From the NCBI GenBank assembly GCA_017510725.1, contig JAFWMD010000072.1:33123-97122 (forward strand): a stretch of 64,000 bases of DNA. The letters run 5' to 3'. The position numbers and the translations under genes were made by a program. Every line of letters starts with the position of its first letter. Position 1 is the stretch's first letter. The notes under the pieces are model-generated. The model worked only from the letters and a program-made list of their open reading frames with translations. It did not search any database and was not told the origin of the DNA. Positions 31,320-38,369 of the stretch are shown here, in pieces. This DNA comes from Mogibacterium sp. (lineage in GTDB: Bacteria > Bacillota > Clostridia > Peptostreptococcales > Anaerovoracaceae).

Positions 31320-32678
31320 TTGAAAAGCAGAAAGAACATAACGGATTTTACATCGGGAAATGTGCCCAGACAGCTGGTGATTTTCGCCACACCGCTGTTT
31401 CTTTCGAGCCTGCTGCAGCTTATTTACAACATGGTAGATATGATCATAGTTGGGCAGAAGCTGGGCAAGGTAGGTCTTTCCGCGGTCTCGGTCGGCGGCG
31501 ATGTCACGAATTTTCTTACGTTCATCGCAATGGGCTTCGGAAATGCCGGGCAGATAATCATTTCTCAGTATATCGGCTCAGGCCAGAAAGACAAGATAAG
31601 CCGCTTCATCGGCACGATGATGTGCTTCCTTATGAGCTGCGCTGTAATCGTCAGTATCGTATGCCTGTCGTTGAAAACGCAAATGCTCTCGCTTATGAAC
31701 ACCCCGCCGGAAGCATTCTCCGAAGCAGTCAGCTATGCAACTGTCACGATGTCCGGTCTTGTATTCATATACGGATATAATGCAATGAGTGCTGTTTTAC
31801 GAGGCATGGGTGACTCGGTCAGACCGTTCATTTTTATCGCTGTCGCGGCTGTCGGAAATATAGTGATGGACATACTGTTCGTGCTCATGATGGGCATGGG
31901 AAGCGCAGGTGCGGCTCTTGCAACGGTGCTCAGCCAGGCATTCTCGTTCATCGGCTGTGCGGTCTACATCTTCAGAAACAAAGAAAAATACGAGCTTACT
32001 CTGGCGAGAAGTGAACTTCTCTGTATCGACAGAAGCATGCTCGCAAATCTCGTTAAACTTGGCATCCCTATGGCTATAAAAACAGCTTCGATCCATCTGT
32101 CGAAGCTGTTCGTGAATTCTTATGTAAACTCTTATGGTGTTGCTGTCTCGGCATTCGCAGGTATTGCCAACAAGATGTCAGGTGTTGTGAACACCCTGTC
32201 TAACGCGTTCAACACCTCGGGAGCATCTATGGTGGGTCAGAACATCGGAGCCGGCAACTACGACAGAGTCGGAAAAGTGATGAAGTCTGTTTACGCGATC
32301 ACTACTACTCTCGCGGCTGCCTTCTCGCTTCTTATCTGCCTCTTTCCGAAGCAGATCTACGGGCTGTTCACTAATGAGCCCGACGTAATAGCTATCGGCA
32401 TAAAGTTTGTGCCGATAGCGTGTGTACTGTTTTTCGGAAGCGCTGCAAGGTCGGGTATGAACGCGCTGATCAACGGAAGCGGCAATTACAAGGTCAACTT
32501 TGCAACGGCTATTCTGGATGGTATCGTCATGAGAATAGGCCTTGCTCTCCTCTTCGGTCTTACCCTCGGAATGAAGCATTACGGCTTCTGGCTGGACGAT
32601 GCTCTTGCAGGATTCACCCCGCTGTGGATCGGTCTTGTTTTCTATTGCTCAGGCAAGTGGAAAGAGAGCAGTGTCTGA
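31320..32678 (+). CDS. MATE family efflux transporter
   Basis: A 452-residue protein with twelve membrane helices in two bundles, typical of the DinF/NorM-like MATE family. FTSGNVPRQLVIFATPLFLSSLL at the start, YNMVDMIIVGQKLG, and the matching second-half segment FVNSYVNSYGVAVSAFAG are diagnostic. It should export drugs or toxic cations using a sodium or proton gradient. The start is TTG at 31320 behind GGAGG. It is one of three plus-strand genes here and is bracketed by the two tRNA-tail segments, suggesting it came in as a cargo gene. Confidence 0.9.
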   Translation: MKSRKNITDFTSGNVPRQLVIFATPLFLSSLLQLIYNMVDMIIVGQKLGKVGLSAVSVGGDVTNFLTFIAMGFGNAGQIIISQYIGSGQKDKISRFIGTMMCFLMSCAVIVSIVCLSLKTQMLSLMNTPPEAFSEAVSYATVTMSGLVFIYGYNAMSAVLRGMGDSVRPFIFIAVAAVGNIVMDILFVLMMGMGSAGAALATVLSQAFSFIGCAVYIFRNKEKYELTLARSELLCIDRSMLANLVKLGIPMAIKTASIHLSKLFVNSYVNSYGVAVSAFAGIANKMSGVVNTLSNAFNTSGASMVGQNIGAGNYDRVGKVMKSVYAITTTLAAAFSLLICLFPKQIYGLFTNEPDVIAIGIKFVPIACVLFFGSAARSGMNALINGSGNYKVNFATAILDGIVMRIGLALLFGLTLGMKHYGFWLDDALAGFTPLWIGLVFYCSGKWKESSV

Positions 32679-32717
32679 TATCGAAGGCCGGGATCGTTAC
32701 TGCCTCTGTCCGACATA

Positions 32718-32890
32718 AAAAAGGACCTTGCGTTAGCAAGGTCAATTGGTTACGGGAACGAGATGTGTTTATTTCTGAGTTTCAATTATCTCAAGCATTA
32801 CAACGTTTTCTTCAAATTCATCCCCTCTTTTTTCTCCAAATCCTTAGGTTTCAATATAGTTCGAATTGGTTTATATGCTAACCGAAATCA
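32718..32890 (-). other. tRNA-tail segment B with terminator
   Basis: The minus strand reads a 140-base stretch related to segment A, ending in CCGTAACCA (3' end at 32747), then a perfect 8-bp terminator stem GACCTTGC/GCAAGGTC (32724-32743) and a run of six T. It follows the DUF3800 stop codon by a few bases and would serve as its transcript end. The tail differs from the initiator-tRNA end in two or three bases. With segment A and the tRNA it makes three CC-GCAACCA-plus-terminator modules within 7 kb. Confidence 0.6.
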
Positions 32891-32895
32891 ACGAG

Positions 32896-33570
32896 CTACA
32901 TTTCTTTTTCTTTTACTGGTTTTATGTAGTTCTTATATAGGGTTCTCTCGTTGTTAAAGAAATGGATCTCAGAATTAGATAGGTTTTTAGCCTCTCGCTT
33001 ATGATTTATAAGTTCTATGGTGCATATCAAATCAGCAACTTGAAACAACCTATACGATGAAGGTAAAACCCGTCTAAACTCAACATGGTCAAGAAGCGAA
33101 TTAAATACTGAAGCAAGTATTTTGTTTACTTCTGTTTGGCCATTATCATAATAAATCTTAACAGTATCAAATGAGATAAAGAACTCCAGATTATCTCTAA
33201 TAAACCTTGCAATTTGCTTACTTAGTAATGCTACCGCTTCCAAGGAATCATTTGTTTTGCGTTTTTCGATATAGCATGATTTATATCTGACATTAACGTT
33301 TCGGGTAAATGTCATCATTCTTTTCATGATTTTCTGCCTTACCGAAATATCCACATATCGATACTCCTGCTCACCTCGTATGATTGGTCCTGTGTGTACG
33401 CAATGATTTGGATATCCAAGCGCTGAGAGTTCTGATTCCAGATGTTCTAATTCTTCCTCAATATCATATGCCTGATTATGCATTACCAATGTAATGATAT
33501 AGTAAGGAGCATGCTTTTCATACTCTCCGAAGTCACCAGATTCATCAACAAAAATGCTTAATTCTGTCAT
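32896..33570 (-). CDS. DUF3800 family protein
   Basis: A 224-residue protein of the DUF3800 family, thought to have an RNase H-like nuclease fold. The start FVDESGDF (7-14) gives the first acidic pair, IYYDNGQTEV in the middle the second, and LFQVADLICTIE near the C-terminus the third. The ATG at 33570 follows an AAGGAG site. Directly upstream is an intrinsic terminator, a structured leader and a consensus promoter. The gene is AT-rich relative to its surroundings. DUF3800 genes are frequent on mobile elements and near defence genes; function unproven. Confidence 0.88.
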   Translation of the reverse strand: MTELSIFVDESGDFGEYEKHAPYYIITLVMHNQAYDIEEELEHLESELSALGYPNHCVHTGPIIRGEQEYRYVDISVRQKIMKRMMTFTRNVNVRYKSCYIEKRKTNDSLEAVALLSKQIARFIRDNLEFFISFDTVKIYYDNGQTEVNKILASVFNSLLDHVEFRRVLPSSYRLFQVADLICTIELINHKREAKNLSNSEIHFFNNERTLYKNYIKPVKEKEM

Positions 33571-33582
33571 TTGTTCTCCTTG

Positions 33583-33658
33583 AAAAAAAGTGGCGGGTGT
33601 CTTACCCGCCAATATGTGGACCCGGGTCTTACGACCAGCCCAATAATCTCTTGATTAC
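33583..33658 (-). ncRNA. Structured leader RNA with terminator upstream of DUF3800
   Basis: From the expected start near 33658 the transcript can form TAATC/GATTA, GGTC/GACC with a GTAA loop, a GACCCGGGTC palindrome, and finally the stem GGCGGGT/ACCCGCC followed by ACTTTTTTT (33590-33584). The T-run directly precedes the AGGAG site of the DUF3800 gene. GTAAGAC occurs in two successive hairpin loops. This can release a 75-nt RNA or act as an attenuator. Structured RNAs upstream of DUF3800 genes have been described as families (the DUF3800 RNA motifs); whether this matches one of them I cannot test. Confidence 0.7.
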
Positions 33659-33664
33659 AACTTG

Positions 33665-33693
33665 ATTATATGTGAAAAAGCAACCCATGTCAA
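33665..33693 (-). promoter_or_regulatory. Consensus promoter of the DUF3800 RNA/gene
   Basis: On the minus strand TTGACA (33693-33688) is followed by exactly 17 bases and TATAAT (33670-33665), a perfect sigma-A consensus and among the strongest promoters in the window. It lies 30 bases after the stop codon of the helicase gene. Confidence 0.9.
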
Positions 33694-33722
33694 TCAGAGC
33701 CATACTCACATTCAGCTGCTAA

Positions 33723-36719
33723 TCAGACAAGCTCGTGCTGACCATTCTCATAATCCCAGCTTTCCCATCTGTCATCACCAAGGGATAGCTCCAACAGTTC
33801 TGCCGCTACTATCGGAGACTTGATTCTAATGAGATTATCCCAGATGTCATCACTTCCAAGAAGATTTACGCCTCCGTGCCATACTATTTCATCATCAATA
33901 ACTGCGAAATGTTCCAACACCTCTTCTCTCGGAATAACGTTGATTCCATTGTTTGTCATAGTATTGATGAGTTCCATATAATAATCTGACGAACTATCAA
34001 GCACTCGATCCGGATTTGTTGTGATTACAGTGATCTTTACTCCGGCTTCTTGTCGGCTGCGAACAATATATATGAATCGATTCACCTTTTCACGAAGAAG
34101 TACCGGGCTTGAAATCACAATAGCCCTATCTGCTTCTATAACATCCTGTTCAAATGTATCAGAATAGTTGCCTGCATCATAGATGGCATTAGCCTGTTGT
34201 TTTTCGGGTGTTGCCCACCCTATCACGCTGAAGCCGATCTTTTTGTACAGATTCAGTCTCTTGGCATACATATTATTGAAGTAGCGTATATGTGAATCAA
34301 CATAATCATAGACTACGATTTCCTTTTTTCCTTCATAGTCTCTGTTGAGCCGCCCTACGTATTGTTCAAGATTAGACCCTGAAGAAGATACAGGAGAAGC
34401 AAGCATCAGTGTATCAAGCCGTGGCATGTCAAAGCCTTCACCGATCTTCTGCCCGGTAGCCACAAGTATCATGGATTCATCATCCGGAATTCCTTTCATT
34501 TCAGTTCTGGCTGCGCTGTTTTCTTTATCTGAATTGTCTCCATATATAAGAAATACATGATCAGCCTCTTCTCTCAGGTTATCGTAGAGATATTTTGCAT
34601 GTTCTTTGTATCTTGTCAGGATGACAGGTGTTTTATCATCAGATATTGACTGCTTAACATCTGAGATTATCATCTGGTTACGATCAACACTTTTGCTTAT
34701 AAGTGTAAACGCCTGATTAATATCGCTACGGCTTTCAATAGTATCAATAGTCCTCGTGAATCGTGGAAATACATAGTGTTCGATCCCTTGAGAGACAGCT
34801 CTCTGCTTTGATGTATAACTGTGACGCATAGGTCCGATCAGCATTGGAATCATCTTCTCAAGTTCGTCACTTCTTTTTATGGTTGCTGATACGCCATAAA
34901 CATACCTTGCATTAACTTTTTGAAGCACCTCAACAGCTGTACTTGCTGCCGCATGATGACATTCATCCATGATAACCATACCATATGAGTTGATCAGCTC
35001 ATTGAATTTGCCCTTTGCATACACAGAACCAACCATAGCTACATCTACTATTCCCGTAAGCGCTTTCTTCGATCCATGCAAAACTCCAATTACACTGTCT
35101 CTCTTTTTTACTCTTCCGGTTTTGGTTGTGTATTCCGGTGGATCCTCATCTATATCCAGAAATTTTTCGAGTTCATCTACCCATTGATCCAAAAGGTCTT
35201 TGCTTTGTAGCAGAATCAGACAATTGACTTTTCTCTCTGCAATAAGGTAACTGCAGACAACAGTTTTTCCGAAAGCAGTTGCCGCACTGAGCACTCCGTT
35301 GTCATATTCCAACATCTTCTGCGCTGCAAGATCCTGTTGTTGTTTAAGGGAACCATTGAATTTGACCCTTATCGGTCTTCCTTTTTCCCTATGATCCGTA
35401 GTGTCATAGTATATTCCTGCTTTGTCACATGCTGTCTCTAATTCTTCCAGCACGCCTCTTGGCATACGAATATATCCGTCAATATCTTTTCCGAGATATA
35501 ATGCGCTGAAATTATAATAATTTGAAAACCCAAGTCGTTTATTCTGAAAATACTTCGGATTGTCGAATGCTGTCATGCATCTTATCTGATTCTGCAATCT
35601 TGGCATAAGATTCAAGGTATCTACATAAACACCATCCGCCAACACAATATGCAACTTACCTATTACATCAGCCTTATTCAGGCGGTCAGTCTTTCTCCAT
35701 GGTTTTGGTCTTGAGCCAGAGAATAAATCTGTGGCATTCACAACATTAGGATCCAATTCACTTGACCATTTGACCATGAGTTGCTCGATTTCCCTTTGAG
35801 AATACCTTGGTGTTCGGTTCACAAGAACATCCCACTGGTCAGTATATGCATTCCAGTTTTTATCGACAAAGGCACTATTACCATTATTCAATGCCCAGCC
35901 CTGGAGTGGTAAAGCAATAAGATTTCCCAGCCTGCTTGCCGTGTCCTGTGATGGATACATTCTGTCGTAATAATGGAAAGACTTCATATTAACTGAAGCT
36001 GCTCCCCTGTCCAGAAGCATGAATCCAAAGTTCCTTGCAAGTGATGCCTGTATCGGCTTGTCAAAGAAGATCCAGACATGAGCGCCACGTCCCGATCTTG
36101 ATCTTTCAACAAGAGGAATCACGCCGTTCTTTTCGCACATTTTTCTGAGTGCATCTACCTCTTCATGCCAGGCTTCATCTTCATTTGCATAGTCGTTGGT
36201 TTCCGCGCCTTTTACATGATTATCAAAATCGAACACGAGGAATCTGCATGTACCATCCGGAAACAATGGGTACACTCCAATCACATCTGTACCATCTTCC
36301 TTGTAGCCAATCAGATGCTGCATTACAGTTTCAGGTGTAAGCTTTATCCATTGATTGAACGCACACTCATCGCAGAACTGCTTTTCGCCATGCTGCTTGG
36401 GGCAAACATAATTATTCCACCTGTTAGCACACTGTGGGAAATAGCCACCCTTGCGTCCCCGTTTTGCATAAACGTCCTGACGTCCCCAGAACATTTTGAA
36501 AAATGCCTGTGCATGCTCCCTTGTAATAAACGGTCTGTATATTCTTGCACCCTGATCAGGATCATATTCTTCGTACTCTTCTATTCTGTCTGAAAAATAG
36601 TCCTGCTCGTTATAGGCCGCTCCGACCTGTCGCAGTTGCGCCTTAAGACTTTTATTCTCTTCCTGCAATCCTCTGATTATCTTACGCAGGGAATCCAAAT
36701 CATATGCTTCGATGTTCAT
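33723..36719 (-). CDS. TOTE-type primase-helicase-PLD nuclease protein
   Basis: A 998-residue protein. A coiled start (1-35) leads to a Cys cluster (Cys97, 106, 116, 119), then an archaeo-eukaryotic primase domain with DFD (164-166) and SRSGRGAHVW (207-216, His214), as in the TOTE conflict-system primases. A superfamily 2 helicase follows: Walker A AATAFGKT (479-486), DECHH (585-589), SAT (611-613), and motif VI QYVGRLNR (786-793). The C-terminus is a phospholipase-D-like nuclease domain with HFAVID (937-942) and GGVNLL; the lysine of the HxK motif is not in its usual place. The family is tied to mobile elements and phage conflict. The gene is AT-rich and adjacent to DUF3800 and a transposase. 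Confidence 0.85.
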   Translation of the reverse strand: MNIEAYDLDSLRKIIRGLQEENKSLKAQLRQVGAAYNEQDYFSDRIEEYEEYDPDQGARIYRPFITREHAQAFFKMFWGRQDVYAKRGRKGGYFPQCANRWNNYVCPKQHGEKQFCDECAFNQWIKLTPETVMQHLIGYKEDGTDVIGVYPLFPDGTCRFLVFDFDNHVKGAETNDYANEDEAWHEEVDALRKMCEKNGVIPLVERSRSGRGAHVWIFFDKPIQASLARNFGFMLLDRGAASVNMKSFHYYDRMYPSQDTASRLGNLIALPLQGWALNNGNSAFVDKNWNAYTDQWDVLVNRTPRYSQREIEQLMVKWSSELDPNVVNATDLFSGSRPKPWRKTDRLNKADVIGKLHIVLADGVYVDTLNLMPRLQNQIRCMTAFDNPKYFQNKRLGFSNYYNFSALYLGKDIDGYIRMPRGVLEELETACDKAGIYYDTTDHREKGRPIRVKFNGSLKQQQDLAAQKMLEYDNGVLSAATAFGKTVVCSYLIAERKVNCLILLQSKDLLDQWVDELEKFLDIDEDPPEYTTKTGRVKKRDSVIGVLHGSKKALTGIVDVAMVGSVYAKGKFNELINSYGMVIMDECHHAAASTAVEVLQKVNARYVYGVSATIKRSDELEKMIPMLIGPMRHSYTSKQRAVSQGIEHYVFPRFTRTIDTIESRSDINQAFTLISKSVDRNQMIISDVKQSISDDKTPVILTRYKEHAKYLYDNLREEADHVFLIYGDNSDKENSAARTEMKGIPDDESMILVATGQKIGEGFDMPRLDTLMLASPVSSSGSNLEQYVGRLNRDYEGKKEIVVYDYVDSHIRYFNNMYAKRLNLYKKIGFSVIGWATPEKQQANAIYDAGNYSDTFEQDVIEADRAIVISSPVLLREKVNRFIYIVRSRQEAGVKITVITTNPDRVLDSSSDYYMELINTMTNNGINVIPREEVLEHFAVIDDEIVWHGGVNLLGSDDIWDNLIRIKSPIVAAELLELSLGDDRWESWDYENGQHELV

Positions 36720-36796: not shown

Positions 36797-37933
36797 ATGC
36801 ACTCAAAGCTTAACGATTCTCAAATCCTGTCAATACGCTCTGCATACTGGAGCGGAACACCGGTAAAAGAGATCTGCAAAATATATGGTATTTCGGAATC
36901 AACAGCATATTTCTGGATTGCCCCTAACCAATACAAGGAATATGCAGCGGATCTTGGAATGGAAATAATGATACATAAAGAGTTCTGTGATACACAACGC
37001 AGTATGCAAAAGCTAAGAAAGATCGTAGGTATTCTCAATGACGCAAACTGTAACAGTGAATCGCCGCTCGAAGAAAAACTAAGTGAATTCGTGAGATTAA
37101 GTCCAATTTACGGAATCAACGTGACACTTGAGGCTCTTCATATTTCAAAAGGGACTTATCATAACAGGATAATCTGTAAACATAACCCGACTTGTTATGA
37201 GCTGCATCACAAGGAGATCAGCGAAGCAGTTCAGCACATTTTTGATGAAAGCGAGCAATGCTATGGTTCAGATAAGATTTTGGCCGTTCTTAAGAGACGT
37301 GGATATCGCACGTCAAAGAGGTATGTGCTTAACATAATGCATGAACTTGGCCTCGAAAGCATAAGAATTCATTCAAAAAAGGATTACTACGCCCTGCATC
37401 GGAAGAACAAAGTCAAAAGGCAGTTTGATGTTTCTGCACCAAATACTGTATGGGTCAGTGATATTACCAAATTCAAGATAAAAGGTATTTATTATCATGT
37501 ATGTGTTGTTATGGATCTCTTTTCGAGAAAAGTCGTCGGCTATAAAATCTCTCCGAACGCTTCAACACAGATAGTAACCGCTTCTTTCAAAATGGCTTTC
37601 AAAGAAAGAGGCTATCCAGTTAATCTATTATTCCACAGCGACCAAGGATGTCAGTATACTTCCAAGGCTTTCCGCAAACTTCTTACAGGCTGCTCTGTGG
37701 ATCAATCATTCTCACATACGGGTACACCCATTGATAATGCGGTAAGTGAGTCTTTCTTTTCGAATCTGAAGAAAGAAGAAATGTATAGGCATGACTATCG
37801 CTCAGAGCGCGAATTCAAAACCAGAATATCCAGGTATATCGCGCACTATAATCAGAATCGCCCGCACAGCTATAACAATTACAGATCACCTGATGAAAAG
37901 GAAACTCAGTATTATACACATATGGCGAAATAA
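36797..37933 (+). mobile_element. IS3-family transposase, single fused frame
   Basis: The 378-residue product has an N-terminal helix-turn-helix (SGTPVKEICKIYGISESTAYFW), a HTH_21-like middle, and an integrase-type core with Asp in WVSDITKF, Asp in FHSDQGCQY and Glu in VSESFFSNLKKEE. IS3 elements normally use two overlapping frames joined by frameshifting; here both parts are in one frame. AAGGAGG precedes the ATG. I could not find clear terminal inverted repeats or a target duplication on either side, so the element ends are unknown and the copy may be immobile. Confidence 0.85.
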
Positions 37934-38090: not shown

Positions 38091-38166
<76 letters not shown>

Positions 38167-38190
38167 TCATCGTATTAAGTTTTTGGAAGG

Positions 38191-38279
38191 TGGTACCGGA
38201 GACCGGACTCGAACCGGTACGAGAATCACTTCTCATAGGATTTTAAGTCCCAGGTGTCTACCAATTCCACCACTCCGGC
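38191..38279 (-). tRNA. tRNA-Leu (TAA)
   Basis: A class II tRNA of 89 bases with a long variable arm, anticodon TAA in loop CTTAAAA, A73 and encoded CCA. The acceptor stem GCCGGAG/CTCCGGT begins with a G-T pair. It lies between the Asn and initiator tRNAs. Confidence 0.93.
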
Positions 38280-38294
38280 TTAATTTGTATAAAA

Positions 38295-38369
38295 TGGCTC
38301 CGAGGGTGGGGCTCGAACCCACAACCTACCGGTTAACAGCCGGTTGCTCTGCCATTGAGCTACCTCGGA
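38295..38369 (-). tRNA. tRNA-Asn (GTT)
   Basis: A 75-base tRNA with acceptor stem TCCGAGG/CCTCGGA, G73, encoded CCA and anticodon GTT in CTGTTAA. It is first in the operon, 27 bases after the -10 element. Confidence 0.93.

Follow-up and report, generated by a model that had tools for sequence, protein, structure and literature searches.

The window, the whole 64,000 nt stretch of DNA analysed here, carries on its minus strand a short structured RNA of the family DUF3800-XI directly in front of a gene for a DUF3800 protein. We put at roughly one in two the probability that this RNA acts in trans to restrain the predicted nuclease encoded behind it, in a layout like those of AbiF/RCd22 and ToxIN, with the copies of its hairpin found in phages as possible decoys. 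Membership of the curated RNA family and a layout of this known kind are not new. What seems to be new is the lopsided link between RNA and gene, the assignment of the two hairpins P3 and P1 to the RNA, and a hairpin that DUF3800-XI has in common with cow-rumen-3 and drum-linked phage RNAs.

In reading order the locus consists of a promoter, three hairpins (P1, P2 and P3), a ribosome binding site and the DUF3800 gene. The promoter (33693-33665) has a -35 box TTGACA (33693-33688) and a -10 box TATAAT (33670-33665) separated by 17 nt; the first-pass annotation called it perfect, and it does match at 12/12 positions, the only such match in 32000-36000, where matches of at least 9/12 number 20 against 9.5 expected from shuffles. 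Judging by the -10 box, transcription would start near 33658, at the first letter of the 5' hairpin P1 (GTAATC-AAGA-GATTAT, 33658-33643), which was located by folding and differs in sequence among relatives. P2 (33642-33617) is the conserved core of DUF3800-XI and contains a 2-nt bulge. P3 (33611-33591) is an intrinsic terminator hairpin with an 8-pair stem, followed by C and a run of seven T (33589-33583) seen both in the sequence and in the terminator scan. The ribosome binding site AAGGAG (33581-33576, read directly) precedes the ATG at 33570, which lies 20 nt from the P3 stem; the frame (33570-32896, stop codon included) encodes 224 residues. The earlier description of a terminator with seven T directly before a DUF3800 gene is thus borne out; of the leader of about 75 nt with three or four hairpins, the length holds and the number of hairpins is three, the terminator being one of them. 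The 77 nt from 33658 to 33582 fold with -30.4 kcal/mol (z -4.05) and none of 200 dinucleotide shuffles is equally stable. The repeat tools find no tandem repeats and no direct repeat families in 33560-33720, and no direct or inverted repeat of at least 10 nt. A genome search detects one copy of the RNA in the source genome.

Directly upstream of the RNA promoter lies a gene with AEP-TOTE primase and helicase domains (33723-36719, minus strand; PF22548, E 1e-73). We considered it as a partner gene and rejected it; among the 129 matches listed below, a TOTE relative stands beside the RNA only in the window (L001) and in L124, whose leader differs from that of the window by one letter in the compared part, so we take the gene as a mere neighbour. 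It adjoins a transposase with an integrase core (36797-37933, plus strand; PF00665). Three tRNA genes in a row (38094-38369, minus strand) lie about 4.5 kb from the RNA.

The RNA matches Rfam RF02975 (DUF3800-XI) at 33642-33595 with 59.4 bits (E 1.3e-10; gathering score 37.8), as the search against the DUF3800 RNA motif families suggested by the first-pass annotation brought out. The annotation's statement that RNA motifs upstream of DUF3800 genes have been described without a function is correct, RF02975 being the curated case. That the leader is nothing more than a common promoter and a terminator, with no RNA of any function in between, is very improbable; terminator-class sites are no commoner here than by chance (4 in 4 kb against 2.9 expected), so the case for an RNA rests on the Rfam match, to which covariation and a spread with the gene over several phyla are added. 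The 48-nt Rfam model has pairs in P2 only and its 3' end lies inside P3; folded alone, this 48-nt part is unremarkable (z -0.68, 59 of 200 shuffles as stable). Beyond the model, the present analysis adds P1, P3 as a covarying helix, copies without the gene (orphans) and copies in viruses. The founding paper of DUF3800-XI is reportedly that of Weinberg and colleagues in 2017. It lay outside the scope of our literature search, which found no paper naming DUF3800-XI or cow-rumen-3, and may already mention virus copies.

Compensatory changes in homologous leaders, the lack of which the first-pass annotation had named as a refutation, are present. Among the matches listed, 70 gene-linked RNAs have standard pairs in 96.7% of pair cells, and 8/17 pairs have both sides changed (7/7 in P3, 1/10 in P2). 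The low count in P2 reflects the search pattern, which fixed most of its letters; letters fixed in this way look invariant for that reason, and those of P1 and P3 were not fixed. In a more diverse set of 49 RNAs, collected by model search and with virus copies among them, both sides are changed in 14/17 pairs (mean of 6.4 in shuffles, at most 9 in slid structures). P3 covaries, and so does P2 once diverged members are added. The alignments (A3 and A4) were fitted to a model, R1, built from the 70 RNAs, the first row being the window; the score of R1 on the window (74 bits) is therefore no independent test. A P1 hairpin of at least five pairs stands next to P2 in 66/81 gene-linked copies among the matches listed, against 0.32 in shuffles (mononucleotide, preserving base counts alone), and these 66 copies have 57 different P1 sequences. 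The repeated GTAAGAC pointed out earlier does occur in the window but is not conserved: among 81 related RNAs it occurs in P2 of 12, in P3 of 12 and in both places in only 4, so it is incidental. By eye, L066, L080, L119, L015 and L074 carry one hairpin more, located after P2 and ahead of the terminator. A tRNA-Ala acceptor stem has G-U at its third pair, followed by A, C and C. A reading of P2 as a mimic of this stem was dropped because diverged members have G-C, U-A, A-U or C-G at the third pair and the P2 region shows no conserved CCA end.

A degenerate P2 pattern matched at least 119 stretches in the collected genomes and 13 in the collected viruses. The former, with 10 loci from 297 genomes of the same order, make up 129 listed bacterial copies (two loci, L003/L041 and L002/L096, are counted twice) in stretches of at most 8 kb. 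Among these matches, 82/129 are followed on the same strand, at a distance of up to 400 nt, by DUF3800, or 82/116 if copies with less than 300 nt of downstream sequence are set aside; in the others it is elsewhere in the stretch (1), absent although 300 nt or more could be inspected (33) or not judgeable (13). The ToxIN-type layout proposed earlier is therefore real and recurrent as a layout; the tandem repeats and the ToxN match that would go with the name are missing. Of the 82 gene-linked loci listed, 76 have a T-tail before the gene, 57 have an intact frame by our filter and 19 have a short or late-starting frame ending inside the stretch, for which assembly errors are not excluded. In the 57 intact loci among these matches, the distance from the end of P3 to the chosen start codon is 16-91 nt (median 25).

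The link between the two partners is lopsided. In the order set (297 genomes) all five DUF3800 matches, four full and one a remnant, lie directly behind the RNA, and 5/10 RNAs have no DUF3800 gene. The class set (391 other-class genomes, window left out) contains 15 gene loci. The RNA is present at nine of these (L188-L192, L195, L196, L199, L202), among them all five with protein matches above 250 bits; at L196 and L202 it is detected by R1 alone (E 9.3e-6 and 3.5e-6) and at L199 it scores below the Rfam cut-off. Four weaker matches (L193, L194, L197, L200) have no such RNA, so the RNA is no general requirement of DUF3800, and at L198 and L201 the gene start is missing and the presence of the RNA cannot be judged. 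Other DUF3800 RNA families were considered at the four weaker loci and ruled out at the Rfam cut-off, where no Rfam family matches. Conversely, the 15 RNAs of the class set comprise seven with the gene (whole or broken), seven without it and one (L221) with a remnant; one genome that is 97% complete (G592) has three RNAs and no gene match at all.

Among 34 orphans in the matches listed, P3 is present in 32, a T-tail in 29, P1 in 25 and a promoter-like site in 21 (a raw count with no shuffled control). At 40/42 orphans, a search for remains of a lost DUF3800 gene, over 2.5 kb or to the end of the stretch, gave nothing, so the orphans may do something else, and two of them (L219 and L220, from two species of one genus) by eye occupy apparently the same place. 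These orphans speak for a quite unlikely alternative, in which P2-P3 has its own function, either as an independent RNA or as a place where a conserved host factor lands, and the DUF3800 protein behind it is a processing enzyme or regulator. It has to contend with the frequency of DUF3800 behind the bacterial copies, and with the lack of any other gene family that recurs beside orphans in more than 3/42 loci. The same short gene was noticed just upstream of three orphan RNAs (L010, L061, L064); the L010 copy resembles, by eye, a helix-turn-helix regulator. The lopsided presence as such, read from the sequences, fits a trans-acting RNA and also allows an RNA function apart from DUF3800.

The same distribution bears on the attenuator suggested by the first-pass annotation, in which the leader would be only a cis-acting control of DUF3800 expression. 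We consider this improbable, even though most loci have a terminator with its T-tail directly before the ribosome site. In 80/81 RNAs the best fold contains both P2 and P3, and a fold without P3 is less stable by at least 6.0 kcal/mol (median 13.6 in the 81 RNAs), so no competing anti-terminator fold is seen; moreover, orphan and virus copies have no DUF3800 gene to attenuate, which speaks against a purely cis role.

The DUF3800 protein matches PF12686 as its sole Pfam family (E 7.2e-11) and has no match in NCBIfam or PADLOC up to E 0.1; the best match among solved structures (E 0.26) is not credible. D9, E10, D142 and D180 are invariant in 50 relatives among the matches listed. A TPR-DUF3800 protein has been modelled with an RNase H fold, and some loci link DUF3800 with TPR to Cas12a2 (PMC10910872, consulted in part); by analogy with that protein, the window protein is predicted to be an RNase H-fold nuclease. 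In a tree of 50 intact members, proteins from Bacillota, Actinomycetota, Spirochaetota, Chloroflexota and Candidatus Saccharibacteria are intermixed, so the cassette moves between phyla. The plasmid records yielded one match to the protein (NZ_OY725717.1, 32.6% identity) and the isolated phage records one partial match (MT836742.1). The second letter of the P2 bulge tracks the protein tree, with 3 changes against 16.8 in shuffles (0/500 as low).

This agreement shows that RNA type and protein type travel together, as would be the case if DUF3800 were active as a ribonucleoprotein with the RNA as its cofactor or guide. RNA is used by other nucleases of the RNase H fold, and the linkage of DUF3800 to Cas12a2 and its modelled fold point the same way; phage copies would then compete with the cofactor, as RNA anti-CRISPRs do. 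We regard this as unlikely. Orphans in genomes without a protein match, such as the three RNAs of G592, would serve no protein, and besides P1, itself a self-paired hairpin, no variable guide stretch was noticed.

Closer models for a restraining RNA come from two known types of locus. AbiF/RCd22 of Clostridioides difficile has the same order of promoter, short RNA, terminator and protein gene, the toxin gene being reached by read-through, and contact between RCd22 and the toxic AbiF neutralises the protein whether the RNA is supplied in cis or in trans (PMC12373285, in the portion available). That system, as far as the same portion describes it, has an Abi_2 protein linked to Cas13 and two abiF motifs (RF03085) per RNA, unlike the window locus, which has DUF3800 and a single P2 and is known here from sequence alone; Rfam finds no RF03085 match in the window and the protein matches DUF3800 only in Pfam, not Abi_2. 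ToxIN and other type III toxin-antitoxin loci likewise have RNA, terminator and protein gene in this order. Membership of ToxIN itself was rejected: the window locus is without tandem repeats by the repeat tools, and its protein belongs to another family, DUF3800, with no match to ToxN/AbiQ. Phages carry mimics in comparable cases. One phage has an RNA antitoxin mimic, pseudo-ToxI, directed against ToxIN (PMC3475682, seen in excerpt), and viral RNA anti-CRISPRs (Racrs) mimic CRISPR repeats, the virus encoding one RNA unit of the defence system but none of its protein genes (PMC10651486, likewise in excerpt). The Racrs are CRISPR repeats with demonstrated inhibition according to that excerpt, unlike the phage copies of P2, which are known from their sequences. 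With AbiF/RCd22, the ToxIN mimic and the viral CRISPR-repeat mimics as precedents, in so far as the excerpts describe them, we favour a trans-acting inhibitor with phage decoys.

In this proposal the strong promoter would give mainly a short terminated RNA of about 75 nt, P1-P2-P3, and a minority of transcripts would continue past P3 to become DUF3800 mRNA; since only this minority reads through P3, the RNA would be in excess over the protein. Acting in trans, the RNA would bind the DUF3800 protein through P2, together with P3, and keep it from acting, much as the RNAs of type III toxin-antitoxin loci and RCd22 do with their toxins. Were the RNA lost, say in the course of a phage infection, a nuclease that may be toxic would be set free. 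For some large phages, RNAs with a P2, most of them encoded in tRNA arrays, would serve as decoys and so silence the protein.

Hairpins of this type are indeed found in viruses without the gene. When the P2 pattern was relaxed, the virus collection yielded 52 stretches. The inner stem forms in 39 copies that have no DUF3800 beside them; two more have RNA and DUF3800 (L170, L174) and 11 are stemless. The set of 39 contains L150, which was added by hand, and L161, which may be a chance match; L139 lies outside it. At 85% identity the 39 copies form 30 groups. A tRNA gene lies within 1 kb of 29/39 and within 300 nt of 22/39, and within 2 kb of 0/11 stemless matches; among the bacterial matches listed, 5/124 copies are within 1 kb of a tRNA gene (3/82 gene-linked, 2/42 orphans). 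Sixteen chosen virus records were searched whole. A single RF02975 match at E <= 0.001 is present in 14 of them (7 over the cut-off), cow-rumen-3 in 10 at the same E value (2 over the cut-off) and the DUF3800 protein in none, with a query that did match in bacterial genomes. The RNA was not matched in 50,697 phage records (isolated phages; short queries).

Several virus copies match R1 weakly, and the resemblance to the bacterial RNA can be close: P2-P3 of L134, which adjoins a terminase gene and a portal gene, equals that of the bacterial L056 in 49/50 letters, the weakest of 13 virus copies agreeing in 34/50. In these 13 copies P1 occurs once, a T-tail four times and a promoter-like site three times (again a raw count with no shuffled control); so few of these elements are expected if the RNA is cut from a longer array transcript.

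The hairpin is also joined to otherwise different RNAs. The cow-rumen-3 (RF03083) consensus ends 3' in a P2-like hairpin, and in L150, L162 and L172 the P2 found by the pattern forms the end of the cow-rumen-3 match. In L132, L136, L142 and L155 a drum RNA (RF02958) is followed directly by P2; on two unrelated virus contigs the end of drum is the start of P2 (L132:11384-11546, L155:2982-3134). Cow-rumen-3 and drum have the P2 hairpin in common with DUF3800-XI, and their other parts are absent from the bacterial RNA. No drum was found in 198 genomes of the order of the window, and control genomes gave no match either. A hairpin combined with such different partners could be a landing or processing site working apart from DUF3800; the phage records searched mostly have one copy each, unlike a repeated processing signal, and we continue to prefer a decoy for a trans-acting restraint.

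Other features were observed on these virus contigs. L155 bears ROOL, drum and P2 together, as well as a phage protein with DUF2828 and DUF7788 (L155:10045-11676, minus strand) that PHROGs describes as an RNA-binding protein; ROOL RNA near phage tRNA islands is already known (PMC12286853, in the section available). L132, a phage contig, encodes a match to an RNA-dependent RNA polymerase (L132:5029-6594, plus strand; PF05183, E 8.6e-17). Group I introns lie on two P2-bearing contigs (L139:5113-5430, L177:2341-2526), and a cow-rumen-4 RNA (L172:8247-8307, minus strand) shares its contig with cow-rumen-3 and a tRNA array.

The RNAs in front of DUF3800 genes have so far been catalogued without a function, and the lopsided presence and the virus copies make a function testable. 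If the trans-acting restraint is correct, a new protein family would join the RNA-restrained toxins. A wider proposal, which we offer tentatively and hold to be possible rather than probable, is that DUF3800-XI is an anti-phage system with an RNA-restrained nuclease, and that large phages carry the inhibitory hairpin as a counter-defence, which sits in their tRNA arrays and also forms the 3' domain of the otherwise unrelated cow-rumen-3 and drum-linked RNAs. If this were true, three Rfam families without a known function would belong to a single arms race fought with RNA, and phage tRNA-array RNAs, often considered only alongside the tRNAs, would have a role in counter-defence.
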